A stretch of DNA of 64,000 bases, from assembly GCF_018688455.1 (NCBI RefSeq), contig NZ_CP061319.1, positions 1,488,001-1,552,000 on the forward strand. The letters are read 5' to 3'. Source of the stretch: Polynucleobacter sp. AM-7D1 (GTDB taxonomy: Bacteria; Pseudomonadota; Gammaproteobacteria; Burkholderiales; Burkholderiaceae). The position numbers were made by a program, and so were the translations under genes. Positions 23,181-38,318 of the stretch are shown piece by piece. The notes beneath the pieces are model-generated. The model was not told the origin of the DNA. It made no database searches and was given only the letters and a program-made list of their open reading frames with translations. The number at the start of each line of letters is the position of its first letter. Position 1 is the stretch's first letter.

Positions 23181-23217
23181 TGGCGGGCCCACCTGGACTT
23201 GAACCTATGACCAAAGT
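23181..23217 (-). pseudogene. Decayed 3' half of the CAU tRNA (att-like scar)
   Basis: This stretch matches the 3' half of the intact tRNA at 37902-37978, from the CCA end through the T arm to the ACCAAAG of the anticodon arm, with about five differences over 36 bases. It then switches to TTTTTTGAAACAACCATC, a sequence also found at the two internal repeats. This is the layout left when an element integrates in a tRNA and displaces the original 3' half. Confidence 0.75.
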
Positions 23218-23292
23218 TTTTTGAAACAACCATCTAACAATTCATTGCTCCAAAGTAATTTTTAGAGGAGTAAGTGTTACTTTAAGTAACGC
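23218..23292. repeat. Partial copy of the island repeat, with GTTACTT palindrome
   Basis: Contains AACAACCATCTAACAATTC and GCTCCAAAG, related to GAGCAACCATCTAACACTTC-type text at 27826 and 32220. It ends in GTGTTACTTTAAGTAACGC (23274-23292), a near-perfect palindrome shared by five sites. Third, shorter member of the repeat family that separates the gene sets of this region. Confidence 0.75.
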
Positions 23293-23342
23293 CAAGAATA
23301 AAACCCTAGAATTGGCACTCATTAGCAATTCCAAATAGAAGG

Positions 23343-24311
23343 TTACTGCTGCTCAATTTGAGCCGTAGCGGCAATCTTTTGATATCGAGAAATCTCTTCC
23401 TTGACATACTTATTAAATTCTTCAGCAGAAATTACCTTGGGGTCAATGCCCACTTTAGAGTATGCCTCTCGTACTTCAGGGTCCTGCAAGGCTTTGGCAA
23501 TATCACCATTAATTTTATTCACCACAACAGCTGGAGTTCCGTTCGGAGCCCACAATCCAAACCATAAACTCATATCAAAATTAGGAAACCCTTGCTCAGC
23601 AATTGTGGGGATCTCAGGCGCAGCAGAAGATCGAGATTTGCTCGCAATACCAAGAGCCAGTAATCTTCCACCTTTAATTTGACCCAAAGCAGTACTTAAC
23701 GAAGCCATGCAAAATGCAATCCTTCCTGACATTACCTCTTGTATAGCTTCAGGACCGCCTTTTAATGGGATATGGTTCATTTTTATCCCAGCAGCTTGAA
23801 TAAAATATTCAGCAGCAAAGTGGGTGGAACTTCCCACCCCCACGGAGGCAAAGGGAATCTCACCAGGCTTTGCCCTGGCTGCGGACACAATATCTTTAAT
23901 AGATTTATATGGGCCATCTGGCGATGTCACTAAAACATATGGCGTATCGCCTAAATAGCTAACATTCACAGGGGGCTTACTATATTCGTAAGGTAACTTC
24001 TTATAAGTTGCAGGGTTGGTTGCAAAAGTTACAGATTGAAAGAGTAGTGTTTGACCATTTGCTTCTGCATTAACAACTGCTGCCGTACCTATTAAGCCGC
24101 CAGCACCAGGTTTATTTTCAACTACTACTGGTTGCTGCCAGACTTTAGTCAAATACTTAGCAATGATTCTAGCTGCTGTATCAGCTCCCGATCCGGGAGT
24201 TAAAGGAACTACCAACTTAACCGGTCCAGAAGGAAAAGTTTGAGCATTTACTTGAGTCAAACTCATCACCATGCAGATAATGAAAGTAATTAACTTATTC
24301 ACCGTTTTCAC
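23343..24311 (-). CDS. Bug/TctC-family periplasmic binding protein
   Basis: A 322-residue tripartite tricarboxylate transporter-type (Bug) solute-binding protein. Signal peptide ends VNA-QTF; family motifs are GPVKLVVPLTPGSGADTAARI near the N-terminus, VENKPGAGG, and the central PFASVGVGSSTHFAAE. Such proteins bind carboxylates or other small anions. No TctA/TctB membrane genes are in the window, so it is an orphan. The start overlaps the stop of the FAH gene by 4 bases (ATGA), which shows translational coupling. Confidence 0.9.
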   Translation of the reverse strand: MKTVNKLITFIICMVMSLTQVNAQTFPSGPVKLVVPLTPGSGADTAARIIAKYLTKVWQQPVVVENKPGAGGLIGTAAVVNAEANGQTLLFQSVTFATNPATYKKLPYEYSKPPVNVSYLGDTPYVLVTSPDGPYKSIKDIVSAARAKPGEIPFASVGVGSSTHFAAEYFIQAAGIKMNHIPLKGGPEAIQEVMSGRIAFCMASLSTALGQIKGGRLLALGIASKSRSSAAPEIPTIAEQGFPNFDMSLWFGLWAPNGTPAVVVNKINGDIAKALQDPEVREAYSKVGIDPKVISAEEFNKYVKEEISRYQKIAATAQIEQQ

Positions 24312-25180
24312 TCCTGATCTTGTATTGAATTTCTTAGGATGCCAATATTTTCTATTTCAATTTCACAGATATCACCGGGTTTCATAAAAACAGGTGGTGT
24401 TCTTGCGTAGCCCACTCCTGCAGGTGTTCCGGTAATAACTACATCACCAGGTTCTAGTGTCATACATTCAGTAATGAGCACAATGGTTTCAGCAACATCC
24501 CACAGAAAGTCTTTAGTGTTTGCATTTTGCATTACCGATCCGTTTAACCGGGATTGAATCTGAAGGCCGTGTGCGCCCTTAGGCAACTCATCTGGCGTTA
24601 CTAACCATGGGCCAAATCCACCGGTCTGATCAAAGTTTTTGCCAATAGTCCATTGGGTGGTTTTACGCTGATAGTCGCGCATACTGCCGTCATTAAAAAT
24701 GCTATAGCCAGCTATGCAGTCAAGGGCATTTTCTCTATTTAAATTACGCGCTCTTTTACCCACCACAAATGCTAGCTCTGCCTCGTAATCCAATTTATCA
24801 GAAACCCTGGGTCGGATTAGAGGGGCCTCATGAGAGGCAAGCGAGCTAGGGCCACGCAGGAAAAAGCTTGGGTATTCTGGACGAGCGTTACCGCCCTCCT
24901 TTGCATGATCAGCATAGTTCAGCCCCATGCAAATAATCTTCCCTGGTCGATCAATCAAAATATCAAACTGGATATCAGAGAGATTTCTAATGACAGCATT
25001 GGGATTTAAAAGCGCCCCTTTAGCCAACCCTAGATCCGGGTCTATTGCAATCAAACTACCTAAGTCCGCTGGGATACTGGCATCGGTTGCGCATAAATCT
25101 ATAAATTCATTTGAGTCTTTTTTGCGGAGGACTCCAACGCTTTTTTTATTGCTCTGATCGCGGTAACTAAATAATCTCAT
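24308..25180 (-). CDS. Fumarylacetoacetate hydrolase family protein
   Basis: A 290-residue FAH-superfamily enzyme; members are hydrolases, hydratase/isomerases or decarboxylases acting on diketo or oxo-acids with Mg/Mn. The C-terminal domain shows IICMGLNYADHAKEGG, the metal ligands in DYEAELAFVVG, WTIGKNFDQTGGFGPW and VVITGTPAGVGYA. It lies between two Bug binding-protein genes in one leftward unit, suggesting that the bound compound or its product is an oxo-acid. Exact reaction unknown. Confidence 0.88.
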   Translation of the reverse strand: MRLFSYRDQSNKKSVGVLRKKDSNEFIDLCATDASIPADLGSLIAIDPDLGLAKGALLNPNAVIRNLSDIQFDILIDRPGKIICMGLNYADHAKEGGNARPEYPSFFLRGPSSLASHEAPLIRPRVSDKLDYEAELAFVVGKRARNLNRENALDCIAGYSIFNDGSMRDYQRKTTQWTIGKNFDQTGGFGPWLVTPDELPKGAHGLQIQSRLNGSVMQNANTKDFLWDVAETIVLITECMTLEPGDVVITGTPAGVGYARTPPVFMKPGDICEIEIENIGILRNSIQDQE

Positions 25181-25194
25181 AGCTTCTTTCTAAA

Positions 25195-26178
25195 TTACTC
25201 TTTCTTAAGCCCTGCAGATTGAACAACCGGCCTTAAGCTAACAAGCTCTTTAGCAATAAATGAAGTTGCTGCAACGCCAGTGATATTACTAATTGGTTGA
25301 ATCGATATTGAATTTAATTTATCGAGTAATTCAGGATTTTTTAAGGCCTTAGTTGTCGCCAAAATTAAAGTGTTAGTAATATCAGGCGATAAACCCTGGG
25401 GTGCAGAGACAATATTCCATAAAGCAGCTTGGAAATCTTTTAAACCAGTCACTTCGTTAACAGTTGGTATATCAGGAATCAAAGGAGATCTTTTAGAGGC
25501 AGCTATTGCAACGATCTTTAGCTTTCCAGCTCTATGTTGATTGATTAATGACCCCAATGTGTCAACCGTCATATTTACTTGGTTACCTATCAAGGCGGGA
25601 ATAGATTGGGCGCTACCTCTAAATGGTATGTGCTGAATATCTAAACCCCCTAATTCATATTTCAATCTTTCACCAACAATATGCAAATAAGTTCCCTCTC
25701 CTGCTGATCCATATTGCAACTTGCCTGGGTTGATGCGCGCATATTCAACCAACTCTTTAAAACCCCCTTTAGTCGCCGGGCTAACCGCAAATACAATCGG
25801 CGCATCACCCACTACTGCAATTTGTGTAAAGTCCTTAATGGAGTCATACTGAGGCTTAGCATTAATGAGGTTATATAGAACATGGGTTGAAGCTGTACCA
25901 AATAGCAATGTATATCCATCTGGTGCACTATTTTTTACTTCTAAACTTCCAATGGCGCCACTTGCCCCACTTTTGTTGTCAACAACTACAGGCTTTCCTA
26001 ATTGCGTTGATAAGGCCTGCGCATACTGCCGAGCAAATTGATCTGTTGGGCCACCTGCAGGAAAAGGTACAACCAATCGAATTGGCTTAACGGGGTAGTT
26101 ATTTGACTGTTGAGCATGAGCTGAGATAAAACCAGCGCACAAAGTCAAAATAAATAAGATAAATTTAAACAGTTTCAT
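25195..26178 (-). CDS. Bug/TctC-family periplasmic binding protein
   Basis: A 327-residue second Bug protein, signal peptide ending SAHA-QQS. Family motifs: KPIRLVVPFPAGGPTDQFAR, VVDNKSGASGAIG, LQYGSAGEGTYLHIVGE and DIPTVNEV. Divergent from the other Bug protein, so a different ligand is possible. It is upstream of the FAH gene by 14 bases and follows the GlcG-like gene by 9 bases, all leftward. Confidence 0.9.
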   Translation of the reverse strand: MKLFKFILFILTLCAGFISAHAQQSNNYPVKPIRLVVPFPAGGPTDQFARQYAQALSTQLGKPVVVDNKSGASGAIGSLEVKNSAPDGYTLLFGTASTHVLYNLINAKPQYDSIKDFTQIAVVGDAPIVFAVSPATKGGFKELVEYARINPGKLQYGSAGEGTYLHIVGERLKYELGGLDIQHIPFRGSAQSIPALIGNQVNMTVDTLGSLINQHRAGKLKIVAIAASKRSPLIPDIPTVNEVTGLKDFQAALWNIVSAPQGLSPDITNTLILATTKALKNPELLDKLNSISIQPISNITGVAATSFIAKELVSLRPVVQSAGLKKE

Positions 26179-26187
26179 GATTAAACC

Positions 26188-26685
26188 TCACAGTTGATTT
26201 TCATTCCAGTTATCGGCAGCTGCCGGCGGCTCAGGCACAAAGCCTGCTAATTTAATTGCCTCAATAGCGCAATACTCATCTTTATCTGAGGCATCTCCAC
26301 TAATACCAACGGCGCCAATTGCAATTCCTTGTTTATTCACTATCAATACACCCCCAGGCGTTGGAATAAATCTTCCGTCTGATGCCGCTGAGAGCGCCGA
26401 TTGAAAGGTCGGTCGATTTGCCAATCTATCTCGAATTTGCCGAGTAGCCATACCCATGCCCAACGAACCCCAAGCCTTGCCAATAGCAATGTCATGTCTC
26501 AATATGCCGCAACCATCTTCTCGCTTGAAGGCAACAACATTCCCACCAGAGTCAAGAACGGCAACTGCTAAAGGTAGCAATCCATTAGTTGCCCTCAACT
26601 TTAGGGCATGAGTAATTATTTGATCTGCATCACTCAACGCTAAGCTTGAATGTACTGAAATAAGCTTTTCAGCCACGATTGCCAC
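26188..26685 (-). CDS. GlcG/HbpS-family protein
   Basis: A 165-residue protein of the GlcG/HbpS (DUF336) family. Typical motifs are ALPLAVAVLDSGGNVVAFKREDG-like text in the first third and TPGGVLIVNKQGIAIGAVGISGD in the C-terminal part. Members bind heme or cobalamin-like cofactors or take part in glycolate and other catabolic operons; function is not fixed. Two GTG starts fit: 26685, or 26676 with a GGGGG ribosome-site run about 8 bases before it. First gene of the leftward catabolic unit, divergent from the GntR regulator. Confidence 0.85.
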   Translation of the reverse strand: MAIVAEKLISVHSSLALSDADQIITHALKLRATNGLLPLAVAVLDSGGNVVAFKREDGCGILRHDIAIGKAWGSLGMGMATRQIRDRLANRPTFQSALSAASDGRFIPTPGGVLIVNKQGIAIGAVGISGDASDKDEYCAIEAIKLAGFVPEPPAAADNWNENQL

Positions 26686-26693
26686 CCCCTATT

Positions 26694-26733
26694 AATATCG
26701 ATATTTTTATATTATCATAATAATATCGATATT
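26694..26733. promoter_or_regulatory. Paired palindromic operators, probably for the GntR regulator
   Basis: Two copies of the perfect palindrome AATATCGATATT, at 26694-26705 and 26722-26733, lie in the gap between the GlcG-like and GntR genes. Their centres are 28 bases apart. Such doubled sites fit cooperative binding by a GntR/FCD dimer that controls both divergent units and itself. Binding is inferred from position only. Confidence 0.65.
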
Positions 26734-26751
26734 TTTAAGATTGCAAACTTC

Positions 26752-27465
26752 GTGATAACCCCAACAAAAAAGGCTTCCTATATCAACGCCATGCAAGGAA
26801 TAACTCGCGCCAGCGCGGTCTATGACCGACTGAAGGCTGATATCTTGCAGGGTCGCTTCGCTGCCGATCAAAAGCTCAAAATTGAAGAGTTATCAAGCCT
26901 TTACGAAACAGGAGCAAGTCCGCTACGTGAGGCATTGAATAGACTTTCAGCAGAAGGTCTCGTTTCAAGAAGCGATCAACGAGGTTTTAATGTTGCACCC
27001 CTGCGATGGGAAGAGCTTGATACGCTAACAGAAACGAGGTGCTTTATTGAAGGGAGAGCACTAGAAGAATCAATTGCTCATCGCACCGAAGAGTGGGAAG
27101 ACAAGTTAGTTCTATTAATTCATAAGCTCTCAAAGAAACCAAGATCATCTGAAACTGATCAACATAGCGCCAATCCAGAATGGGAGCTACTTCATAAGGA
27201 GTTTCACAAAACATTACTAGAAAACGCACCTTCCAGATGGATTAAGGAATTTAGTGAAACGCTTGGAACTGAAAGTTATCGCTATAGACAGGTTGCGGCC
27301 AGTAAAAACTTTGGAGAACGCGACCACCATGCAGAACATGTAGGAATATTTAAAGCGGCTATTAGTGGTGATATTGATTTAGCAAAGAAATTACTCTTTG
27401 AGCACTACAGAAAAACTTCAACCTTAACTGGACGTGGCGCAAGAAGCCTCAAACTCATCAAGTAA
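26752..27465 (+). CDS. GntR-family regulator, FCD type
   Basis: A 237-residue transcription factor. The winged-helix domain has VYDRLKADILQGRFAADQKL and the recognition region ETGASPLREALNRLSAEGLV; the C-terminal all-helical FCD domain follows (TLTETRCFIEGRALEESI, with later HKEFH and HAEHVGIFKAAISGD bearing metal-type His). FCD regulators usually sense organic acids. The start could be GTG 26752 or ATG 26791; neither has a strong ribosome site. It likely represses the divergent Bug/FAH unit through the paired palindromes between them. Confidence 0.88.
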   Translation: MITPTKKASYINAMQGITRASAVYDRLKADILQGRFAADQKLKIEELSSLYETGASPLREALNRLSAEGLVSRSDQRGFNVAPLRWEELDTLTETRCFIEGRALEESIAHRTEEWEDKLVLLIHKLSKKPRSSETDQHSANPEWELLHKEFHKTLLENAPSRWIKEFSETLGTESYRYRQVAASKNFGERDHHAEHVGIFKAAISGDIDLAKKLLFEHYRKTSTLTGRGARSLKLIK

Positions 27466-27546
27466 TAACTACCTTCTATGCACACCATAATCTACAAATA
27501 GTTTATTGCTACAACGGCAGACCACAATCTATTGAGATTACATTGA

Positions 27547-27898
27547 AAGTGTGCAGTAATTGCCCACACACTCTTTAGCAAGTCTAGCGTTACTTAAAGT
27601 AACGCTCAAATGACCAAACACCACCTTTAGCCTCAAAAGCTAGCTTTTTGTGACGTTTAGGTTAACTTTAGGTTCTCTGGTTATGAGAGCAGAAGCCCAT
27701 GATAGAGCCACATAAACAGGGGGTCTGCGGGTGATCAGTGTCGGTGTGTAAGCAAATGTGTAAGCAAATTCGTGGATTTAAAAGAAGCGGTCCCTCACTC
27801 TTTGGTTTTGAAAACCAAAGAATTTTGGAGCAACCATCTAACACTTCGTTGCTCCATAGTTCTTTTTTGGAATTTGATAAGCGTTACTTAAAGTAACG
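27547..27898. repeat. Island direct repeat, left copy (~350 bp)
   Basis: Matches 31938-32292 in order. Shared blocks: a GTGTGCAGTAAT-like start, the palindrome GCGTTACTTAAAGTAACGC (27587-27605) followed by TCAAATGACC, TTTAGCCTCAAAAGCT, AGGTTCTCTGGTTATGAGAG, a CGGTGTGTAAG...TGTGTAA motif, ACCAAAG...TTTTGGAGCAACCATC and a second palindrome at 27881-27898. It separates the Bug/FAH set from the cytochrome cassette. No gene inside. Confidence 0.85.
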
Positions 27899-27989
27899 AT
27901 TACTTTTCTGGAGGACAGCTAACGACCCCAAGTAGGCTCTCGTAGATAGCGGTCTTTGTCATGGAAGTAGTCACTCAACGCTAATCTGA

Positions 27990-28505
27990 CTAATTTATAG
28001 GCTGCAGAGCGATATTCGATTTCTTGTATTTTTCAATCAAATGGCGAGCGCCAATTAAGAGCAAGTGGATAACTACGATACCCAAATAAAGTTCGCCTAA
28101 GGCTTCATGTGAATTTTCCATAACTTTTCTTGTTAACTTGCCTCCAATTTCTTCGTAAGCAGCAATCCCAGCAAGAATCATTGGTGGAACGAGGGCATAC
28201 ATTGAGAGGATGATTAAGCCCATCAGCGCCCCATACCATCGTTGCCACTTTAGTAGCCTTTTTATTTCTAAATTTTTGATATCAAAATAAATTGATTTTC
28301 CTAGAGTAGCCCTTCTCCAAATGGCTACAAGGGATATGCTATTGGGAAATAGTCCGAGAACAATTCTGATGAGAAAAATAATCCCGAAGCCATAACCGCA
28401 ATAGACATGAACAATTCGATAGGTTTCACTGTCTGAAGTAAGGTATGCAATCAGAAATGTTAAGGCGCCTGATGTATGGAGTAATTGCTTTAATGTTTTC
28501 ATCAT
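27990..28505 (-). CDS. Cytochrome b561-type membrane protein of SHP cluster
   Basis: A 171-residue integral membrane b-type cytochrome starting MMKTLKQLLHTSG. About four hydrophobic helices are visible, with candidate heme His in LLHTSG, YRIVHVYCG and near the C-terminus (NSHEALGELY, VVIHLLL). The frame is open further upstream inside the diheme gene, but the ATG pair at 28505 lies 4 bases past that gene's stop and gives the normal start. It presumably passes electrons between quinone and the two c-type cytochromes encoded upstream. Confidence 0.8.
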   Translation of the reverse strand: MMKTLKQLLHTSGALTFLIAYLTSDSETYRIVHVYCGYGFGIIFLIRIVLGLFPNSISLVAIWRRATLGKSIYFDIKNLEIKRLLKWQRWYGALMGLIILSMYALVPPMILAGIAAYEEIGGKLTRKVMENSHEALGELYLGIVVIHLLLIGARHLIEKYKKSNIALQPIN

Positions 28506-28509
28506 ATTT

Positions 28510-28992
28510 TTACTTTGGTATTCGAACTTCGTCATCGTCAAAATTGCCCTGTTCGGCATTTTTGTGGCAGGCATTGCAATTTGAAGGGCTCTTAATGGCT
28601 GGCGATAAAAACTCCCTAGAACTAATTTTTCTATGCTTCTTTTCAAACCAGCCTGACTTTGTAATTCTGTTATCAGGCGGCGCCTCTTTGACTCGCTTAT
28701 AGGTGCCAGCATTACTGTTAAGCCAAGAAGCAATTTGCATCATTTCCTGCTGACTTATTGAAGCATCTGTGCCATAGTGCTTTTGCAGCCCATTCATGAT
28801 TTCTGTCCAAGATTCTTTGGGCAGTAATGCAGGGGCGTAGGACATATGACAACTGGCGCATTCTTGCTTATAGATTAGCGGGACATTGACTGGCATCAAA
28901 TTCTTGCTACCAGCATTGACAGTTTGAGCAACCATTCCAATTATTAGGTAAATCAGTGCGGTAAATAGAGGCACCGTAATTAAGTGTTTCAT
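28510..28992 (-). CDS. Diheme cytochrome c (DHC type)
   Basis: A 160-residue exported diheme cytochrome c. Signal peptide ends TVNA-GSK. Two heme-binding motifs are present: CASCH near residue 46 and CNACH near residue 139. The order SHP, diheme c, cytochrome b fits the DHC described with SHP in phototrophs and other proteobacteria. A good AAAGGA ribosome site precedes the ATG. It lies 10 bases after the SHP-like gene. Confidence 0.88.
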   Translation of the reverse strand: MKHLITVPLFTALIYLIIGMVAQTVNAGSKNLMPVNVPLIYKQECASCHMSYAPALLPKESWTEIMNGLQKHYGTDASISQQEMMQIASWLNSNAGTYKRVKEAPPDNRITKSGWFEKKHRKISSREFLSPAIKSPSNCNACHKNAEQGNFDDDEVRIPK

Positions 28993-29002
28993 TGGTAGTC
29001 CT

Positions 29003-29404
29003 TTATTTTTTTAAACTTATTAGGTAAGCCAAAACATCTGCTTTTTCTTGGGGCTGGCACTCACGACCTAAAACATCGTTGCAATTTCTCCGAAACCATT
29101 TATCACTTTTGGCTTGGTCTATGAATGCATCGGGATTGGACGAGGGAGCAAGAGGGTCAATTGGCTTATTGGTAGAGGCATGCTTACCCTGATTGATTGG
29201 CGGGTTTCCGTGGCATGATGAGCATGACCATTCTTTACCATGCGTAGAAGTAAAGAAAACCCTTCCTTTTTCACTATTGCCTGAGGAGCCAGCCTTATCT
29301 GACCAATACTGCATTTGTTTGACTGCAGTAGTGTCGCCTGCATTGGCTATGCCAAATATAGCCATCAAAATTAAGGCAATAAGTAGGTTGTTATTAGTCT
29401 TCAT
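29003..29404 (-). CDS. SHP-type monoheme cytochrome c (DUF1924)
   Basis: A 133-residue exported cytochrome c of the sphaeroides heme protein (DUF1924) type. Signal peptide ends GIANA-GDT; one heme motif CSSCHGNPP; a C-terminal Cys pair in RRNCNDVLGREC matches the family's disulfide. SHP proteins have an Asn sixth ligand and bind oxygen or NO. The ATG at 29404 is chosen because AAAAGGA precedes it by about 6 bases; the frame is open further upstream. First gene of the leftward cytochrome unit. Confidence 0.88.
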   Translation of the reverse strand: MKTNNNLLIALILMAIFGIANAGDTTAVKQMQYWSDKAGSSGNSEKGRVFFTSTHGKEWSCSSCHGNPPINQGKHASTNKPIDPLAPSSNPDAFIDQAKSDKWFRRNCNDVLGRECQPQEKADVLAYLISLKK

Positions 29405-29510
29405 CCCAATCCTTTTAATGTTCATGGGGTGAGTATGAAATAACCCTGCTTTATGGAATCTGAAAGGCTTATTCATCTGCCATTCAGAATTGCCACCCTA
29501 CAATATCAAT
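29405..29510. promoter_or_regulatory. Divergent promoter region of cytochrome/PepSY units
   Basis: A 106-base gap between the SHP gene (leftward) and the PepSY gene (rightward). A TACAAT -10-like hexamer lies at about 29499-29504, just before the PepSY ATG. TTCAGATTCC-type text on the leftward strand and ATTCAGAATTG on the right side could be half-sites for the adjacent response regulator; this is tentative. Confidence 0.4.
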
Positions 29511-29813
29511 ATGAGTTCCATTTCTCGGTCATTAGTTCTAGCCCTATGTTTTTTGTTTGCCATCCCTGCCATGGCAGGGGATGACCACGATAAGGCTAGG
29601 AAGGCATTAGAAAGTGGGCAAGTTCTACCACTTCAACAAATTCTTCAAAAAATATCAAAAGACTACCCCGCTCAAGTTATCGAAGTTGAATTAGAGCGAA
29701 AGAGTAATGGCTGGATATATGAAATCAAGCAACTTAGTGCAGATGGCTCTATTTCCAAGTTGGAAGTGGACGCTAAAACTGGAATTGTTCTCAAGCAGAA
29801 ATCAAAAAAATAA
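29511..29813 (+). CDS. Exported PepSY-domain protein
   Basis: A 100-residue periplasmic protein: signal peptide (AIPAMA-GDD) followed by one PepSY domain (QVLPLQQILQKISKDYPAQV, then KLEVDAKTGIVLKQ). PepSY proteins often regulate peptidases or sense envelope signals, and one sits beside the two-component genes in many SHP clusters. The ATG at 29511 is used; a TTG 21 bases upstream is in frame but less likely. It precedes the response regulator by 5 bases in one operon. Confidence 0.82.
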   Translation: MSSISRSLVLALCFLFAIPAMAGDDHDKARKALESGQVLPLQQILQKISKDYPAQVIEVELERKSNGWIYEIKQLSADGSISKLEVDAKTGIVLKQKSKK

Positions 29814-29818
29814 TACTT

Positions 29819-30481: not shown

Positions 30482-31817
30482 TTCTATTCGCTTAAGAATT
30501 ACAGTTGCTTCGCTGGCGGCTATAGCCATTGCCATCTTTGCGGCAAATATTCTGATTGCCAATTTATTCAAAGAACATGCAGTAAAACAATTTGAATCCA
30601 CGATGCGGGTTCAGTTGAATCAGATTGCAAGCCTAGTTGCGGTTGACCAAAAGTCTGGACGGATTGCATTGACTTCCCAGCCTAGCGAGCCAAGATGGTC
30701 TGCACCGCTATCAGGGTATTACTGGCAAATCAATCTTCCTGATGGTCAACTTCTCAGGTCTCGTTCGCTGTGGGACTCAACACTGAATGTAAGTCAGAAA
30801 GAAACTGCGGGCGCAAGTAACTTTTATTACATTAATGACTTAAGTAATCAGCATTTACTGGCGTTGACAAAAAGTCTGTCAATCGATGGTGCTTCAATAA
30901 AATTTTTACTTACTGTTGCATCCGATACCAAGGAATTAGATGATGCAATTCTAGCCTTTCAATCAAGCATTCAAGGGTATTTGTTAATTTTGGCAATTGT
31001 GCTTTTGGCAATTTTATTTTTACAAATTACCTTTGGGCTTTCACCCTTGGGGGCGCTGAAAAAGGCATTACATAAATTTCATATTGGTGAAGCCGATAAG
31101 GTCAATGGAGTTTTTCCAGTGGAATTTAACCCATTGGTTGCTGAACTAAATGCTGTAATCGAGAAGAATTCGAGCATAGTAACAAGAGCCAAAACACAGG
31201 CTGGTAACTTGGCTCATGCGATGAAAACACCAATTGCCGTAATTTCAAATGCGCTCGAAGATAAAAATATCAGCGATGAATCTTTCAAGACATTGGTAAA
31301 AGAGCAAATTAGTAATGCAAAAGAGCAGATTGATTGGAATCTTGCAAAGGCAAGGGCGGCAACTGCTTCAAAGAACCCAAGGTTAAAAACCCAAGTTGTG
31401 CCGGTAATTGAATCAATTGTGGCTGTGATGCATAAGGTCTATGCCGAAAAAGACTTAAGGATAGAAGTTCAAAATCCTACCGCCTCTTCATCAATATTTA
31501 ATGGAGAAGAGCATGACCTTCAGGAAATTGTAGGAAATCTTTTAGACAATGCTTGTAAGTGGGCAAAAACTAGGGTGGATATTTCCACAGCCTCATATAG
31601 GGATGGACTGCAGATTGTTGTTGAGGATGATGGCTTCGGAGTGAATCCCGCAGATTACGGCAAAGTGCTAAGAAGAGGGTTTAGGGTCGATGAATTGACT
31701 CAAGGGTCTGGGCTTGGATTGGCGATAGTTGACGATTTGGTATCGATATATGACGGTAGCATCGAATTGGGTCAGTCTAGCCTTGGCGGTCTGAGGGTGC
31801 AGGTTCGACTCGGGTAG
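30471..31817 (+). CDS. Sensor histidine kinase of SHP cluster
   Basis: A 448-residue inner-membrane kinase. Two membrane helices (about 10-30 and 168-190) enclose a periplasmic sensor of about 135 residues. The dimerisation/H-box reads LAHAMKTPIAVI with the phospho-accepting His. The ATPase domain has the N box NLLDNACKWAKTRV, DDGFGV and GSGLGLAIV. The H-box (NLAHAMKTP) resembles PhoQ-type kinases. It probably senses an envelope redox or small-molecule signal for the adjacent regulator. Confidence 0.9.
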   Translation: MILNSIRLRITVASLAAIAIAIFAANILIANLFKEHAVKQFESTMRVQLNQIASLVAVDQKSGRIALTSQPSEPRWSAPLSGYYWQINLPDGQLLRSRSLWDSTLNVSQKETAGASNFYYINDLSNQHLLALTKSLSIDGASIKFLLTVASDTKELDDAILAFQSSIQGYLLILAIVLLAILFLQITFGLSPLGALKKALHKFHIGEADKVNGVFPVEFNPLVAELNAVIEKNSSIVTRAKTQAGNLAHAMKTPIAVISNALEDKNISDESFKTLVKEQISNAKEQIDWNLAKARAATASKNPRLKTQVVPVIESIVAVMHKVYAEKDLRIEVQNPTASSSIFNGEEHDLQEIVGNLLDNACKWAKTRVDISTASYRDGLQIVVEDDGFGVNPADYGKVLRRGFRVDELTQGSGLGLAIVDDLVSIYDGSIELGQSSLGGLRVQVRLG

Positions 31818-31937
31818 CCGCACTATTTGGCATAGTCGTTCACTATCTTGCCAATTGACTTACTAAAACCTAAGGTCTATACGACCGCTATTGGCTGATA
31901 GCAGCCCCTAAGAGCACAATCATTCAATATCCCCAAA

Positions 31938-32292
31938 AAGTGTGTAGTAATCGCCTATACACTTTCGAGCATGCCCAGCGTTACTTTAAGTAACGCTCAA
32001 ATGACCGAACCTAACCTTTAGCCTCAAAAGCTGGCTTTTTTTGATGTTTAGGTCCTGCTTAGGTTCTCTGGTTATGAGAGCAGACATCCAAAGAAAACCA
32101 TTAGGATTTCAAGAGCTTACGTCTCCTGTTTATCGGTGTGTGAGTATTTGTGTGACTAGATTAAACAGATCACAAGAAATATTAATTCAGTCATTGGCAT
32201 TCAAAACCAAAGGATTTTTGGAGCAACCATCTAACACCTCGTTTCTCCAAAGTTCTTTTTTTGAAGATTGATAAGCGTTTCTTTAAGCAACA
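31938..32292. repeat. Island direct repeat, right copy (~355 bp)
   Basis: Partner of 27547-27898, same orientation. It holds the palindrome GCGTTACTTTAAGTAACGC (31978-31996), TCAAATGACC, CTTTAGCCTCAAAAGCT, AGGTTCTCTGGTTATGAGAG, CGGTGTGTGAG...TGTGTGA, ACCAAAGGATTTTTGGAGC followed by AACCATCTAACACCTCG, and a decayed palindrome at 32274-32292. It ends the cytochrome cassette. The whole gap 31818-32433 is otherwise empty of genes. Confidence 0.85.
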
Positions 32293-32433
32293 CTTAAGAG
32301 GCATGACTCTTGGAGAGAAATCAAAATCCGTTAGCCAATTTCTAAAAAAATTACTGTCACATTGTGTTGAAGAGGTAGCCATGATGACTCTTCGAATTAT
32401 TCACCCTAACAACTTCGGCACATCGCATGTTTA

Positions 32434-33624
32434 TTAACTACGCTTTGAAAGTCGATTCAGAAAAATGAGTCCCAACACAGGACCTGGCAGCAATAGCCAG
32501 GTGATGTATTGATTCATAAATGGCAAGACTACGGTACTGATTTGAATTGAGATCATCGTTATCGTAAAGCCAACTGCATTTTGAATAGTAAGTGCAGTAC
32601 CGACAATCTCGGGCGGGCATGCTTGTGCTGATAGCGCTGAAAATTGTGGCGAATCAGCGACGACACTCATTCCCCAAATAGCCCAAAAGAGAATTTGTGC
32701 CCATAACGGTAATCCAGAAATCCACGGATACAGTAGACAACAAATGCCCGATAGCGCCAAAGCTGTTGAGGCAACTTTCACCCCCCCAATAGATTTGCTA
32801 AGTTGCCCTCCAAGAAAGCAGCCAATTGCACCAATCCCGATTACAGAGAATGCTAGCCCCGATAAATGAATGGGATTTTGAATTGAATAGGTGCTAGCAA
32901 TCAGAAATGGTACAAGTGCCCAGAATGCATAGAGCTCCCACATGTGACCGAAATATCCCAAAGCAGATCGACGATATTCTGAAATTGCAAAGAGTTCACG
33001 AAAGCCGCTTAGCTTGACTCGTGAAGCACCACCTAATTTAAGGTGGGGGCCATCTCCGAGCCAGAAAATCATCACCATTGCAACCAGAGCAAAGAAGGAA
33101 GATAAAAGAATAACCTCTTGCCAAGGCCAATCGACACCGAAGTAACGAGTAGCATGCGGAATTGCTGTTCCCAGCGTTAGCATTCCGACCAATTGCGCAA
33201 TGCGCGAGCTCGCTTTTTGGGGGTCCCAGGTCATTATGAGCTTCATACCAATTGGATAGATTCCGGCCAAACAAATTCCAACTAAAAAGCGTAAGCAAGA
33301 ACCTACAAAAATACTGTCAGCCCAGACAGCAAATGCAGCGTTAAACAATGCCCCAAGTAGAGCGCATGCAGCAAAAAGATGGCTAGGCTTGTACCGATCT
33401 GCCATCCCACTTAAGGCAAAGACCAAAGTACCTGACACAAAACCGAGTTGCACAGCATTGGTAAGGATGCCTATGCCTGCAAGATTGGTGTTCCACGAAT
33501 CTATTAAATTGTCAGCCACTCCATTGATGGAAAACCACAAAGAGGTACCCATCAACTCCGCAATCACTATCAATAGTGAGGCTAAATTAGGACTTATGGG
33601 TCGAGAAGTTGTCGTATTAGTCAA
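32434..33624 (-). CDS. MFS transporter
   Basis: A 396-residue inner-membrane transporter of the major facilitator superfamily with about twelve hydrophobic helices. The loop between helices 2 and 3 reads ALSGMADRYKPSHLF, and TM4 has RFLVGICLAGIYPIGMKLI. No substrate can be assigned. It begins the third gene set of the island region, just right of the right-hand repeat, reading toward it. Confidence 0.85.
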   Translation of the reverse strand: MTNTTTSRPISPNLASLLIVIAELMGTSLWFSINGVADNLIDSWNTNLAGIGILTNAVQLGFVSGTLVFALSGMADRYKPSHLFAACALLGALFNAAFAVWADSIFVGSCLRFLVGICLAGIYPIGMKLIMTWDPQKASSRIAQLVGMLTLGTAIPHATRYFGVDWPWQEVILLSSFFALVAMVMIFWLGDGPHLKLGGASRVKLSGFRELFAISEYRRSALGYFGHMWELYAFWALVPFLIASTYSIQNPIHLSGLAFSVIGIGAIGCFLGGQLSKSIGGVKVASTALALSGICCLLYPWISGLPLWAQILFWAIWGMSVVADSPQFSALSAQACPPEIVGTALTIQNAVGFTITMISIQISTVVLPFMNQYITWLLLPGPVLGLIFLNRLSKRS

Positions 33625-33675
33625 ATGAGGATAAAAAAATTAGGGGTAGTCGAAGCACCTTCATTATGTTACGGC

Positions 33676-34137
33676 CTAATTCCCAATACTAAAAATCATT
33701 TGAGGCCTAAATCTCTCCTCGACCCGACGAATATTGAGAACATGAGCATCAAGCATCGCTTGTAGCTGTGAGCGAATATGCAGCTCTTGAATTCTTGGAA
33801 TTAATTTTTCTAGACGTCGTGCTACCCATCCCTGCCCTCGATTCAAAAAAAGCAAGCGTTCCTTGAGATCTTCAATGGAGATCGCTTTTTCATAAAATTC
33901 ACCCGTGGCAGTTGATGGCGAAAAACCGAGTGATCCAATAATTCCGAGCAACATCTTGCACCAGCGCACTTCATCGTGTTGAATATCGGTGACTAACGGA
34001 GCTAATTCGTGACTCTTTATTTGATTGGCTGTTTCCAAGGTTACTCGAGCGCCAGCCCTTTCCGCCTCAAGCAATTCATTTAGGGCAGCAATCAGTTCAT
34101 CGCCGCTAATTGGATTTAATGCTGATAAATCATGCAT
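33676..34137 (-). CDS. Ferritin-like four-helix protein (DUF6306-like)
   Basis: A 153-residue helical protein. Helices carry ELIAALNELLEAERAGARV and DIQHDEVRWCKMLLGII, the spaced Glu/His pattern of ferritin-like di-metal proteins, then helical GQGWVARRLEKLIPRI and LQAMLDAHVLNIRRVEERF. It resembles the family named DUF6306. Possibly a metal-binding stress protein; function unproven. It is leftward, 51 bases upstream of the MFS start. Confidence 0.6.
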   Translation of the reverse strand: MHDLSALNPISGDELIAALNELLEAERAGARVTLETANQIKSHELAPLVTDIQHDEVRWCKMLLGIIGSLGFSPSTATGEFYEKAISIEDLKERLLFLNRGQGWVARRLEKLIPRIQELHIRSQLQAMLDAHVLNIRRVEERFRPQMIFSIGN

Positions 34138-34264
34138 ATGTTGACCTCTTGTGAATGGGGTGCTTATTTACTGGCGATATCTCATGTATTTGTGACCATT
34201 CTAGGGCGATTTGCTCATACTGCATATGAAAACAGCCAAACTTACCAAAATTGGGGGAGTGTCA

Positions 34265-34320
34265 TGGCCCGGGGCGGAATCGACCAGGGAAAAGGGTTCT
34301 TGACTCTAGCTCTGGACTGT
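34265..34320 (-). pseudogene. Heavily decayed tRNA-Phe-like fragment
   Basis: TGGCCCGGGGCGGAATCGA and following bases parallel the better-kept tRNA-Phe-like fragment at 35201 (TGGCCTGGGGCGGAATCGA), including AAGGGTTCTTGACTCTAGC against AAGGATTTTCGACCCTCTG. Too degenerate to fold as a tRNA. With the 35201 copy it brackets the DUF2461 gene. Confidence 0.5.
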
Positions 34321-34362
34321 CGTTTAAAACGACACGAATTGATAATGATTTAATTCTCTTTT

Positions 34363-35055
34363 CTATCTGATTGCTTTTTCAATTAACCGATTAAGGCGAA
34401 TTAATTGCTTAAAGTCCTCAACCACTGATGGCGCCAAGTTTGAAGATGTGAATTTTGTGTTACTGAGTGTCTTTACAACTAAGAAGTTTTTGAGCATAAG
34501 CCAATCCATATCCGGATGGTTTGGATCGAAACCGCGTGGAGGTCGAGAGGCTACGTTCTCACGAGAAAAATTTGTTTTAAAGCGTGACTTGAAAGCTAGA
34601 TCGGCAAATAAGGCATGGAAAGGCCGAGCGTCTTTTGCTATTGCTTCCCTCATCTTTTTCAATTGGGGGCCAGATGGCATAAAGAGCCCACCGGCGACAA
34701 CTACCCCCATGTATGGCGGGATATTGTGAAGAATGCCAAAGAATAAGTGTGGGTTTCTTTCAAAGCGAGACTCAGAAGGTTTCGCAATCGAAATAGATAA
34801 CCAGCTTTTATAGCAGGTACTGCCACGCACAATCTTATTGGCATTCTTTTTAATCCTACCAATTCCTTTTGTAGGAAAGTGATAGTCTGGCACGCTACTT
34901 TGCAGCGCAGTCTTAAGTCGCTCGGCTAAATCAATAAAAGGCTGCCTTACGAGTGTTTCGTAGCTTTCTTGATTTTTATCGAGCCAAGTTGGATCTGTTT
35001 GTTTACCAGCCTCAGTCATGAAAGGAAGAGTCTGCTTTGAAAATTTAATGCTCAT
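34363..35055 (-). CDS. DUF2461 family protein
   Basis: A 230-residue protein of the DUF2461 family. Matching features are the helical start LAERLKTALQSSVPDY, FPTKGIGRIKKNANKI, YKSWLSISIAK, LHNIPPYMGVVVAGGLFMPSG, and the C-terminal FDPNHPDMDWLMLKNFLV. The biochemical role is unknown. It stands between two tRNA-Phe-like fragments, so it may be the cargo of a small inserted segment. Confidence 0.8.
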   Translation of the reverse strand: MSIKFSKQTLPFMTEAGKQTDPTWLDKNQESYETLVRQPFIDLAERLKTALQSSVPDYHFPTKGIGRIKKNANKIVRGSTCYKSWLSISIAKPSESRFERNPHLFFGILHNIPPYMGVVVAGGLFMPSGPQLKKMREAIAKDARPFHALFADLAFKSRFKTNFSRENVASRPPRGFDPNHPDMDWLMLKNFLVVKTLSNTKFTSSNLAPSVVEDFKQLIRLNRLIEKAIR

Positions 35056-35167
35056 AGCTTTTCCAATCTTGTATTGAATTAATCTAAATAAAACATGTTT
35101 CTCTTATTAGCTTCATTCTACTTAAAGGGGGCAGGTAATACGTGGAAGACACCAACCAACACAGAAA

Positions 35168-35192
35168 CAAAAAAACCACCCGAAGGTGGTTT
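35168..35192 (-). terminator. Terminator with C(UUCG)G loop beside tRNA-Phe relic
   Basis: Leftward ACCACC-TTCG-GGTGGT stem with a T-rich tail, just 3' of the tRNA-Phe-like fragment, where a tRNA terminator would sit. Same core as at 16321 and 19533. Confidence 0.75.
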
Positions 35193-35200
35193 ATAGAATC

Positions 35201-35276
35201 TTGGTGGCCTGGGGCGGAATCGAACCACCGACACAAGGATTTTCGACCCTCTGCTCTACCGTCCGCTATTGGCCGC
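35201..35276 (-). pseudogene. tRNA-Phe (GAA) relic with damaged 5' half
   Basis: The 3' half is tRNA-Phe-like: GGCCACCA end, T arm with GGTTCGATTCC, and a GAA anticodon context (CGAAAATCC). The 5' half is damaged. The D-stem reads GCGG where GCTC would pair with GAGC, and the 5' acceptor GGCCAAT pairs only in its first four bases. It looks like a tRNA-derived att scar, not a working tRNA. Confidence 0.7.
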
Positions 35277-35291
35277 TTTAAGCGTGGCTTG

Positions 35292-36002
35292 TTACAGCTG
35301 CGCTGTCGGTTTCAGGAAGAAATCAATTGCCAACGCAACCACTGGCGGCTCGATGCGGTGTGGGCCTTTGAATTCCAAGGAGGTTACGTCATAACCTGCG
35401 GCCTTAAGTTTGGCTACGTGAGGACGGGCACTAGTTTCAATTGGCAGCTGCTCATCTTCCAAACCGTGGGCGATGAAGATGCGGGGTGTACCATTTTGCT
35501 GAAAGACTGACATAAATCCTGCGGAAAATGCGATCACGTGGCTAACGACGTCGCCGTTGGTCACGCCTACTGAAAGCGCATAGCTGCCTCCGTCTGAAAA
35601 CCCAGCAAACCCCAGGCGGCATGGATCGATAGAAAAACGTGACGCCACTTCGTGTAATGCTTTGTCTAGCCGCTCTAGGTCTGGGCCGTTACCACCCACG
35701 ACCAAGTCCCAAGTCGGGAACTGAGACTGCGGCAGCAGAAGCAAAAAGTCATGCTGACACGCATGGTCGATCACGAATGGCAGCACCTTGTCGGCGCTGC
35801 CACCGGCGCCATGAAACATCACCAGCAGAGGAGCTGGAACTCCAGGCTGCAGGCCGTCCGGCACGATCAATACGGCATCGCGCTCGCTAGCAATACCCAG
35901 GTCGTGACGACCAGCGGGCAAGGCTTGCTTATCGGGTACAGTGCCGGATCGAAAACTAAGCCGGCCCAGCAGCGAATCTCCCAGGAAAGATGTGTCAAAC
36001 AT
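35292..36002 (-). CDS. Phospholipase/carboxylesterase-type alpha/beta hydrolase
   Basis: A 236-residue cytosolic esterase-like enzyme. Motifs: LLVMFHGAGGSADK (oxyanion side), nucleophile GFAGFSDGGSYAL, acid region HGLEDEQLP and C-terminal His in GPHRIEPP. The ATG at 36002 has GAGG six bases upstream and lies inside the end of the AAA+ gene, so translation is coupled. A longer frame to 36065 exists but has no support. Base composition is richer in G+C than the neighbouring island genes. Confidence 0.78.
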   Translation of the reverse strand: MFDTSFLGDSLLGRLSFRSGTVPDKQALPAGRHDLGIASERDAVLIVPDGLQPGVPAPLLVMFHGAGGSADKVLPFVIDHACQHDFLLLLPQSQFPTWDLVVGGNGPDLERLDKALHEVASRFSIDPCRLGFAGFSDGGSYALSVGVTNGDVVSHVIAFSAGFMSVFQQNGTPRIFIAHGLEDEQLPIETSARPHVAKLKAAGYDVTSLEFKGPHRIEPPVVALAIDFFLKPTAQL

Positions 36003-37650
36003 TGCCATCCTCGACGGTTTTACCGATGCTGCGGAAAGCCGCGCACTGAGCAAAGGCTTCCTCACTAAGCAATAAATTCCTACCCTTGCAAAACTTGAGT
36101 GTCAGTTTGAGTAACTCCTTAATATCGCGGCCACTGGCAGCTGCGTAGGTTATTACCAAGCGCTCAACTAGGTCGTCGGGCAGTTCGGTGTTGAACTGCT
36201 GCGCTAGCGATTTCCATAGTTGTTTCGCCTGCTCTTGTGTCGGTGTCTCAAACTGAATGATGGCGATGCAGCGCGACAAGACAGCGTCATCAATGTCGGC
36301 TACGCGGTTGGTAGTCATGAACAGTAAACCATTGAAGTACTCAAGGGTACGCAAAAACTCAGCGACGATGGCGTTGTGCTGCAGATCGTTATCGCGGCGG
36401 CGAATGTAGACGTCGGCCTCGTCGAGCAACAGCACCGAGTCCCAGCGCGCAGCGCGCCGCAGGATTTTCGACAGGTTGGCTTCTACTGAGCTTGCCGTCA
36501 CGCCGAGTTGACCAGAATGTACGCGGTATAGTGGTTTCTGGACAACCTCGGCATAGACCTCTGCTGTCAGCGTCTTGCCTAAGCCAGGCGCGCCTTTGCA
36601 CAGAATGGTTGTGCCGCCCGACTTACCCTCGACGATGTCCTCCATTAGGAAGTTACGATCAGCGGTCAAGATATCAATCAGCTCGCGATGAGCATGCGGC
36701 AGAACCAGCTTGTCACGCAATTCTGGCTTGTAACGATACGACTCAACATTTTGCACATGTACCCATACGCTGCGGTGGTAATCTAAGTGAAATAGGTGTA
36801 GATAGCAATGCTGGGGAATTCGTTCAAAACCCTCGCTGATACCGCTGCTGCGCCAGAAGCTTGCATCGGCCGTGGTATCAAAGTGGCGTTCCAGCAGCTC
36901 TTCGTCATTAACGCAGCGAGCCGTTGTGCCTACCTGCAGCCGCATACATTCGAGTTGTGGACGAGGCCCTTCGCTGGACATCCAGACGGCGCCAGAAACA
37001 GTAAACTGCGCACCAAACTTCGGCTGCATCTGCATGAAACGCTTTAAGTGCGTCTCGTATTCGTTTTTGAATTCCGCACATTCTTTGAAGTAACCATAAC
37101 CTGTCATCAATTCGGGAATCGTGCAATCCAGAATATCTTCAGCATAAAAGGTGATGCTGTTGGTCATGCCAGTACGCCTTAGCCTCGGATCGGTAACCGG
37201 CCCCCGTTCTGCAGCCTGCAAGGTATTAGCCAGAAGGCCGATGATGACATAAGCCGCACTATCGACAGGCTGCACAAAGCGCATGGAATGGACCAGCCAG
37301 GGCAGCAACACACCATCCTTGCCGAGCTTATAGAGCCAGCCATCTATCATGTCACGCGACAGCCAAGCGATCAGACCAGGGATCAGATGCTCCAAGCTAG
37401 GAATTTTTCGGGCAGCTGGCGCGGCGTGGATATTGTCCAGCGCCAACATTTGGAACATTAACCCACGCTCGTTGGCCGTTCGGCACAGGCTGTAGAGTGT
37501 GTTAAGTGAGGCGGCATCGAAAAGGTGGCTGGGCACCACACGTTTGCCTCGGGAAAGGCCGTACTCGCTCAGCCGCTTAGCAAGCAGTGAATCTTCATTG
37601 ATCGTTCCAAGTAGCTCATTGGCCAGGGTTTCTGGTATTTCGAATTCCAT
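35995..37650 (-). CDS. AAA+ ATPase with large uncharacterised N-terminal part
   Basis: A 551-residue ATPase. The last 200 residues form an AAA+ module: Walker A GAPGLGKT (353-360), Walker B VLLLDEAD (406-413), sensor-1 Asn448 in TTNRV and Arg460 as a possible arginine finger. The first 340 residues are unlike common bacterial AAA+ proteins; their FTVSGAVWMSSEG...HLFHLDYHRSVW run recalls the N-terminal part of some eukaryotic-type AAA proteins (tentative). Coding composition is GC-rich against its AT-rich flanks, a sign of transfer. It is coupled to the esterase gene. Confidence 0.82.
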   Translation of the reverse strand: MEFEIPETLANELLGTINEDSLLAKRLSEYGLSRGKRVVPSHLFDAASLNTLYSLCRTANERGLMFQMLALDNIHAAPAARKIPSLEHLIPGLIAWLSRDMIDGWLYKLGKDGVLLPWLVHSMRFVQPVDSAAYVIIGLLANTLQAAERGPVTDPRLRRTGMTNSITFYAEDILDCTIPELMTGYGYFKECAEFKNEYETHLKRFMQMQPKFGAQFTVSGAVWMSSEGPRPQLECMRLQVGTTARCVNDEELLERHFDTTADASFWRSSGISEGFERIPQHCYLHLFHLDYHRSVWVHVQNVESYRYKPELRDKLVLPHAHRELIDILTADRNFLMEDIVEGKSGGTTILCKGAPGLGKTLTAEVYAEVVQKPLYRVHSGQLGVTASSVEANLSKILRRAARWDSVLLLDEADVYIRRRDNDLQHNAIVAEFLRTLEYFNGLLFMTTNRVADIDDAVLSRCIAIIQFETPTQEQAKQLWKSLAQQFNTELPDDLVERLVITYAAASGRDIKELLKLTLKFCKGRNLLLSEEAFAQCAAFRSIGKTVEDGNV

Positions 37651-37844
37651 GCGCTCTTTTTACTCCATTTACTAAATCATAAAAAGCTAGGTCTGAAACA
37701 TGCTTGACTGCAGTCAATGCGAGCCAAAATAGGGTTCATTTTGGGTGCGGTGTGTGCCCGAAGATGACTTACCCCCACCCTACTCAGCTTAAGAGGTCAC
37801 AGAAAAGGATATAAGGAATTCTATCTGTCGAAATGAAACTTAAC

Positions 37845-37861
37845 CGTTACTTAAAGTAACG
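37845..37861. repeat. GTTACTT palindrome beside intact tRNA
   Basis: CGTTACTTAAAGTAACG followed by CTCAAAA, the same palindrome as at 23274, 27587, 27881 and 31978. It lies about 40 bases past the tRNA 3' end. Confidence 0.75.
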
Positions 37862-37866
37862 CTCAA

Positions 37867-37893
37867 AAAAATACCGACCCGAAGGTTGGTATT
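37867..37893 (-). terminator. tRNA terminator with C(UUCG)G loop
   Basis: Leftward stem AATACCAACC-TTCG-GGTCGGTATT followed by TTTTT, 9 bases past the tRNA CCA end. Confidence 0.8.
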
Positions 37894-37901
37894 TTCATTT
37901 C

Positions 37902-37978
37902 TGGTGGGCCCACCAGGACTTGAACCTGGGACCAAAGGATTATGAGTCCTCTGCTCTAACCAACTGAGCTATGGGCCC
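37902..37978 (-). tRNA. tRNA with anticodon CAU (Met or lysidine-type Ile2)
   Basis: A complete 77-base cloverleaf with encoded CCA. Acceptor GGGCCCA pairs with TGGGCCC; D arm AGCTCAGTTGGTTAGAGC; anticodon loop CTCATAA; T arm with GGTTCAAGTCC. CAU anticodons occur in initiator and elongator tRNA-Met and in tRNA-Ile2. The GACTCATAATC arm with strong G-C neighbours resembles Ile2-type tRNAs, but the identity is not certain from sequence alone. It is the anchor of the island region. Confidence 0.93.
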
Positions 37979-38040
37979 GTTAATCTTTACATGCTGTTTT
38001 GCACTACTTAACTACTTCAAAACCACACTAAAACCGCATT

Positions 38041-38090
38041 TACTACACACCATGAAAAATGCCTTGGTGTGTAAGCGGTGTGTAGTGAAT
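38041..38090. repeat. GTGTGTA motifs with inverted repeat between tRNA copies
   Basis: ACTACACACC (38043-38052) pairs with GGTGTGTAGT (38078-38087), and GGTGTGTAAGC lies between. Similar GGTGTGT(A/G)AG text occurs at 27740 and 32134. These could be arm-type integrase sites. The rest of 37651-38318 holds only the palindrome, the terminator, the tRNA, its half copy and the VapB operator. Confidence 0.5.
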
Positions 38091-38164
38091 TTACACCGCC
38101 TAATTCACCACTAACCTCTTGAATCTATTGAGGTCTTTGTTACAAGACCCCTAGGGCTTCTTTC

Positions 38165-38203
38165 TTATGAGTCCTCTGCTCTAACCAACTGAGCTATGGG
38201 CCC
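38165..38203 (-). pseudogene. Perfect copy of the tRNA 5' half (39 bp)
   Basis: Identical over 39 bases to 37940-37978 of the intact tRNA: 5' end, D arm, and anticodon up to the loop. It stops at TTATGAG and is preceded by unrelated CCTAGGGCTTCTTTC. The copy lies 186 bases upstream of the tRNA, which suggests that an element carrying or displacing the 5' half recombined at the anticodon loop. Confidence 0.85.
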
Positions 38204-38274
38204 TATACCTTCATTGTAATTGAAGGGTCAGTCTAACCTCATATCTAAGGGGTGGAATTGCGTTTACATCACGG

Positions 38275-38304: not shown

Positions 38305-38318
38305 AGGAGCCATTGATC

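Follow-up and report, generated by a model that had tools for sequence, protein, structure and literature searches.

A probable accretion array of integrase-less elements at a tRNA-Ile(CAU)-like gene beside rpoD in Polynucleobacter

Known islands at RNA genes and the present locus

As presented in the available parts of the respective sources, several described systems come close to the locus treated here. The Islander survey (PMC4383910) reports islands whose tRNA target is restored from a tDNA fragment in attP, with 3760 islands bearing a 3' fragment and 159 a 5' fragment, and the ssrA islands of Dehalococcoides (PMC3146451) are built of units in tandem, 15 of which have no integration module; these were read as accretion and as possible cis-mobilizable elements. 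Tycheposons bordered by tRNA genes are described in Methylophilaceae (PMC10872708), and a review of group I introns (PMC3984707) treats the intron of the Azoarcus pre-tRNA-Ile, its available part making no mention of an integrase or a genomic island. Tandem accretion is, as such, already known. In this study, we analysed a window (the whole stretch of 64,000 nucleotides, positions 1,488,001 to 1,552,000 of contig NZ_CP061319.1) from Polynucleobacter sp. AM-7D1, which contains a tandem array of three integrative elements without integrases at a tRNA-Ile(CAU)-like gene adjoining rpoD. It is very probable that this is an accretion array, in which an element carrying a replacement tRNA, here called the captain, stands first and tRNA-less elements, here called passengers (units 2 and 3 in the window), stand behind it.

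With the Islander islands (PMC4383910) the array shares the split in the anticodon loop, the displaced fragment at the far end and the tandem arrangement, and it differs from them, as far as the available part of that survey goes, in carrying a whole tRNA, in keeping both halves of the old gene and in having window members without integrases. The Dehalococcoides islands (PMC3146451) likewise stack a large number of units in tandem at a single essential RNA gene, but use a serine recombinase and a site in the tmRNA T-loop, and the part available mentions neither whole-gene replacement nor an intron. Tycheposons (PMC10872708), in the part accessible, are similar in being cargo islands that have tRNA borders and tyrosine recombinases and occur in water bacteria with small genomes, whereas the system described here has a recombinase of about 190 amino acids (aa) with the catalytic domain only, a captain with a whole tRNA and passengers with none. 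The Azoarcus type, in what is accessible of the review (PMC3984707), also places a group I intron in tRNA-Ile, and the introns found here match Rfam RF00028; unlike it, they lie mostly in the replacement tRNA of a mobile element, within the att overlap. Among the titles and abstract beginnings of the literature matches listed, none brings together group I introns and the att sites of islands in tRNA genes, though an earlier description is possible, and no account of a whole replacement tRNA whose core holds an intron was found among those matches.

Junctions, shared ends and order of the elements

Read in the orientation of the tRNA, the array begins with tRNA positions 1-39, the captain's left end, the complete tRNA, the cargo, a right end and CTCATAA; it continues with passenger 1, a right end, CTCATAA, passenger 2 and a shortened right end, and closes with a decayed tRNA 3' half (Table 1). 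ARAGORN detects a single complete tRNA in the window, with the anticodon CAU, and the genome (G000 in our set) holds one complete match to it, the next best reaching 80% over part of the length. An earlier, sequence-only reading of this stretch had tRNA copies at 23181, 37902 and 38165 bracketing about 15 kb and, between them, a Bug/FAH, a cytochrome and an MFS/AAA+ gene set with no integrase gene; this description is borne out by ARAGORN, by the identities of the partial copies (84% and 100%), by Pfam, and by the absence of an integrase domain from all 20 window proteins scanned (open reading frames of at least 100 aa, 18 at 19.5-37.7 kb and 2 at 38.2-38.9 kb). As in a tRNA-gene genomic island, a tRNA gene and a displaced fragment lie at the ends; an integrase gene is lacking from the window array and present in the captains of some relatives, and the target is not restored by a tDNA fragment in attP, the captain bringing a complete tRNA. 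Tandem att-bounded units without a recombinase of their own, as expected of an accretion array, are present.

Both internal junctions read CTCATAA (on the plus strand TTATGAG, the last 7 nt of the motif in the sequence-only reading), with a right-end core (TGTCTGCT or CTTCTGCT) before and the left end CCAGAGAACC after each. The attL and attR sites of relatives, chosen from BLAST lists by extent, behave consistently: in each of the 23 attL sites printed, agreement with the tRNA extends, bar a few base changes, as far as index 39 and then ends, three of them (G026, G032 and G068) matching two bases further, while 17 of the 18 attR sites printed have CTCATAA at 33-39 and one has CTCACAA; 11 other 3' fragments with different starts, decayed or preceded by an intron, were kept apart from the attR set. 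From these sites we infer that the crossover falls in the 7-bp anticodon loop CTCATAA. At direct contacts of a right end with a captain left end (G012, G481 and others), an imperfect inverted repeat surrounds the loop, GGGCTTCTGCT-CTCATAA-GAAAGAAGCCC. Most of the 14 right ends compared share a module made of the palindrome GTTACTTAAAGTAAC, a hairpin whose stem measures about 11 bp and a second palindrome (CTTTGGTTTTGAAAACCAAAG), whose CTTTGGT merely resembles the tRNA; the module is absent in G026, G032 and G062 and partial in G016, G084 and G005. The third right end of the window, at 23.2 kb, retains palindrome and hairpin, lacks the arm and core region, presumably through a later deletion, and enters the tRNA 3' half at CTTTGGT. 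No match to the attP pattern was found in viral contigs.

These junctions shift the breakpoints proposed previously. The sequence-only reading had placed them at a ACCAAAGG core and had suggested looking for att sites that contain the GTTACTT palindrome, but the copies of ACCAAAGG at 27811 and 32204 are part of the palindrome inside the right ends, which puts the proposed internal breakpoints about 125 bp off the junctions at CTCATAA; the motif was consequently rejected as a breakpoint, and GTTACTT is a subterminal feature rather than the att core. Its wider proposal, successive site-specific integrations at the anticodon arm, is well supported by the shared ends and the same 7-bp overlap in dozens of relatives and by the different array positions that part of the MFS/AAA+ set takes in two relatives, with the placement of the motif as the part that failed. 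Moreover, the gene order of the 23-38 kb region, whose conservation would have spoken for ordinary intergenic repeats, was conserved in none of the 41 other regions compared (tblastn, at least 50% coverage), 29 of which are at least 18.5 kb long and 12 of which, at 0.8-15 kb, are too short to show the whole order. The captain's whole replacement tRNA and the group I intron in the copies of relatives are features beyond that reading.

The order of the two kinds of element is strongly skewed across the genus. An exact-pattern search places passenger left ends at 39 sites, spread over 26 of 151 genomes, where they are preceded by an element right end at 33, by the tRNA 5' half at 1 and by other sequence at 5, whereas captain left ends, with the same start after CTCATAA, occur at 63 sites in 49 of the 151 genomes and are preceded by the tRNA 5' half at 42, by a right end at 17 and by other sequence at 4. 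Reversed-pattern controls gave 0 matches for both left-end types. With the 'other' sites excluded, right ends recognised by their last six bases only and the relatedness of genomes ignored, the contrast has a Fisher p of 2.6e-11 per site and of 2.5e-11 with one entry per genome. The lone passenger at a tRNA 5' half (G528) is inserted at a second tRNA copy, one with a changed acceptor end, and a complete copy lies elsewhere in that genome.

At the rpoD locus itself, 57 of the 61 genomes searched had an rpoD match, and from them 39 loci were chosen (42 regions were stitched), non-randomly, long contigs and tRNA copies or split tRNAs already seen being favoured. Beside rpoD these loci have a split 5' half in 23 cases (strongly diverged in G001), a complete intronless tRNA in 15, 8 of which show no further tRNA copy in the fetched stretch, and a complete tRNA with an intron in one (G023). 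Among the 23 split loci the replacement tRNA contains an intron in 18, lacks one in three (G000, G014 and G020) and is unreadable in two (G027 and G063). In the window it is positioned 186 bp inside the captain's left end, with both halves of the old gene kept. The island of G027 at the rpoD site seems to have had its tRNA restored by a new 5' half, so more than one restoration solution coexists at this site. Elsewhere, at three loci (L151, L154 and L156), related small recombinases are flanked on one side by a tRNA 5' half, which is broken in L156, and on the other by a complete tRNA, either tRNA-Phe or a CAU tRNA; this arrangement suggests that a new 5' half restored the gene.

The junctions, the shared ends, the replacement tRNA and the captain and passenger order across relatives are direct observations, and the following course of events would account for them. 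A tyrosine recombinase would join the attP of an element to the tRNA anticodon loop with CTCATAA as overlap, and the insertion would split the gene, its 5' half staying by rpoD and its 3' half becoming distal. Because such an insertion would destroy the sole copy, the captain would supply a full replacement tRNA a short way in from its left end; passengers would later join at the junction between element and tRNA 3' half, where no functional gene would be broken. Lethality is probably the reason why passengers are not found first. This suggests a rule for stacking at an essential single-copy gene, in which the first arrival brings a working copy and later ones need not.

Several points weigh against this account. 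The tRNA, which ARAGORN labels as Met, is one that we take to be tRNA-Ile(CAU) from a likeness of sequence and from its position, and a consensus scan of the minus strand in 37979..38164 found no consensus promoter for the replacement tRNA. The attR of passenger 2 itself is a conjecture, since the distal end of the array is decayed. No passenger was seen between a 5' half and an existing captain, although this would be viable; the observed order may therefore be due in part to a preference for the attR side. Co-location is what ties the recombinase to the ends, with 6 of 13 closed captain units having no recombinase, and the recombination reaction itself is deduced from sequence, no excision circle or transfer having been observed.

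Recombinase, intron and competing explanations

Some captains in relatives encode a tyrosine recombinase of about 190 aa (190-222 aa in the seven read), of which only the catalytic half is covered by matches to XerC/XerD-type profiles. Among closed units, 7 of the 13 of captain or type IV kind have a member of this family, against 0 of the 7 passenger units, and the small recombinase of these captains probably acts on the element ends. The window genome has three PF00589 hits, all outside the array. Two of these proteins, with positions and scores shared with relatives, are read as XerC and XerD; the third, of 207 aa, is thought unlikely to serve the ends of the array because its score against the captains' profile is 18 bits, compared with 275-359 for members. 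A profile search found no close relative of the captains' recombinase in the window genome, so the array is probably fixed unless an outside enzyme arrives; the missing resident recombinase may have been lost, or the enzyme may have been supplied from elsewhere. Whole-tRNA replacement as a general rule for related recombinases elsewhere is unsupported by the 20 recombinase stretches inspected, 5 of which contain a partial copy of a complete tRNA (two tRNA-Phe, two tRNA-Met and one 17-nt tRNA-Arg match), and none of the RF00028 matches from the genus search falls inside these stretches.

Introns are concentrated in the captains' tRNAs. Downstream of the 63 captain left ends, 54 sites could be read, the split being judged by the bases after GGACT and the other nine falling mostly at contig ends; the replacement tRNA is split by intron-like sequence at 47 and intronless at 7 (G000, G014, G020, G082, G467, G491 and G530). 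G005, missed by the script among the nine unread, has an intron according to the RF00028 search. At the 39 chosen rpoD loci, an intron is found in 18 of 21 captain tRNAs versus 1 of 16 complete tRNAs adjacent to rpoD, a difference with p = 1.3e-6 when relatedness and the choice of loci are ignored. The introns, 203-262 nt long, appear to be of group I type and putatively self-splicing. RF00028 matches 17 of the 18 intron-bearing captain tRNAs (not G083) and exceeds its curated score at 8 of 10 loci (of the other two, locus L042 does not extend across the intron and L031 reaches 49.6). Two intron positions occur, after tRNA index 37 or 34, both within CTCATAA, and the index-34 type reaches 33-34 bits (E about 1e-5, cut-off 50). 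Joining the exons yields a 77-nt tRNA in the 18 cases tried (17 replacement tRNAs and G023), identical to the window copy in 12 and with 1 to 7 base changes in 6. A likeness to the Azoarcus intron itself is presumed.

In the genus, RF00028 is over its cut-off in 16 of 61 genomes and at E <= 0.001 in 24, and the search also matches in 3 of 14 control genomes; order-wide, 39 of 399 genomes match, 12 over the cut-off. From the 29 loci read in the order-wide search, 12 have a tRNA-Ile-like gene; a second 5' half lies near it in three (G451 of the same genus, G369 and G101 of two other families) and is absent in nine within the 3-kb loci read. By eye, the order-wide matches fall in several tRNA gene types, some of them tRNA-Leu- or tRNA-Asp-like. 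In G101 (locus L146), a captain left end is kept nearly letter for letter and is followed by a second split 5' half, and the third tRNA there has an index-34 intron; our reading of this arrangement is an apparent cross-family transfer with stacking. G101 does not decide whether an intronless replacement tRNA can be hit, its 3' half being unassignable.

What the intron does for the element, if anything, was weighed against these counts. It could camouflage the att site: the DNA core in the replacement tRNA would be broken and so become a poor substrate for the recombinase, and the RNA would be made whole by splicing. Its frequency in captains (47 of 54 readable, and 18 of 21 against 1 of 16 beside rpoD), both positions inside CTCATAA and the exons preserved on joining are consistent with such a role, and partial protection would fit the fusions of right ends, which involve an intronless tRNA 3' half at 73 sites, spread over 52 of 151 genomes, and the first intron type, the only one that the pattern covered, at 3 sites in 3 genomes. 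That ratio is confounded, however, because most tRNAs adjacent to rpoD have no intron and half-carrying elements may have contributed some of the 3' halves as their left ends. Any block is also incomplete: the three fusion sites, one further intron-bearing fusion common to G068 and G064 that the pattern missed, and perhaps another in G084 imply that intron-bearing genes can be hit. Seven captains, the window's included, have no intron, many intron-bearing tRNA-Ile genes of other families have no split 5' half nearby, and anticodon loops are the usual place of bacterial tRNA introns. Camouflage is rather unlikely. The fusion in G068 and G064 (L079 and L080), between a right end and an intron-bearing tRNA-Ile 3' half, lies off the rpoD contig and is an ectopic remnant.

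An about equal balance of belief and doubt attaches to the explanation that the intron is a mere rider, that is, a group I intron without a homing enzyme, spreading in element-borne tRNA genes to no benefit of the element. At the lengths given above, the introns would be too short for a usual homing endonuclease gene, and related introns in tRNA-Ile genes of other families, with 9 of 12 loci lacking a second 5' half, agree with it; against this, it leaves the nearly complete lack of introns beside rpoD unexplained unless the elements are the sole intron source. Ordinary intergenic repeats or insertion-sequence-like activity, without site-specific integration, would accommodate the palindromes and hairpins that recur at element ends, but are contradicted by 7-bp junctions common to genomes, tRNA halves on both sides and exchangeable units, so that this explanation is highly improbable. 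Accretion behind a captain keeps its standing as given at the outset, while the stronger combination, in which the element shields an essential tRNA through a self-splicing intron in its 7-bp target and tRNA-less cassettes enter only behind such a captain, is doubtful. The intron also brings a well-studied ribozyme family into the context of a mobile element, in which it might serve a function.

Cargo, coordinates and neighbouring genes

The cargo of the captain recurs at different places of the arrays in relatives: in G010 the hydrolase, DUF2461, DUF6306 and MFS proteins at 95-99% aa identity, and in G064 the AAA+, DUF2461, DUF6306 and MFS proteins at 96-98%; the AAA+ protein is found also in G013 (97%). 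Since the rpoD identities to the window are 85% for G010, 96% for G064 and 91% for G013, G010 and G013 alone argue clearly for transfer. The Pfam match of the hydrolase lies below the curated cut-off only. Relatives of passenger genes in the regions examined are distant (Bug and response regulator, 22-40%) or absent.

Table 1. Features of the array and its surroundings, with positions in the window
Feature	Position	Strand	Basis
rpoD (name as read from the translation), conserved upstream neighbour of the tRNA site	38972..41515	-	translation; matched in 57/61 genus genomes
attL: 5' half (1-39, 39 nt) of the original tRNA; overlap CTCATAA at 38165-38171	38165..38203	-	100% identical to tRNA 1-39
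Captain left end (GAAAGAAGCCC...), region preceding the replacement tRNA	37979..38164	-	left-end start shared across relatives
Replacement tRNA-Ile(CAU)-like gene, without intron in the window	37902..37978	-	ARAGORN and genome search
Terminator-like hairpin and palindrome GTTACTTTAAGTAAC behind the tRNA	37845..37895	-	
Captain cargo: AAA+ ATPase, alpha/beta hydrolase-like, DUF2461, DUF6306, MFS	32434..37650	-	Pfam
Captain right end: palindrome, hairpin, second (imperfect) palindrome, arm-like repeats, core TGTCTGCT	32079..32297	-	
Junction CTCATAA, captain right end to passenger 1 left end	32072..32078	-	
Passenger 1: two-component system, DUF1924, dihaem cytochrome, cytochrome b561	27688..32071	-	no tRNA-Ile copy, no recombinase
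Passenger 1 right end, hairpin region	27811-27872		
Junction CTCATAA, passenger 1 right end to passenger 2 left end	27681..27687	-	
Passenger 2: GntR, HbpS-like, two tctC-type binding proteins (Bug), FAH	23225..27680	-	
Passenger 2 right end, shortened: palindrome and hairpin kept, arms and core missing	23275-23290 (palindrome)		
Distal decayed tRNA 3' half	23181..23224	-	84% over 44 nt

Between rpoD and the tRNA 5' half, at 38220-38943, a MazE/PIN toxin-antitoxin-like pair was noticed. The PIN gene occupies the same place in G007, G019, G020, G063, G074 and G083 (89-95% aa identity), and in all seven genomes that carry it, the window's and these six, the tRNA 5' half lies 772-776 bp from rpoD.

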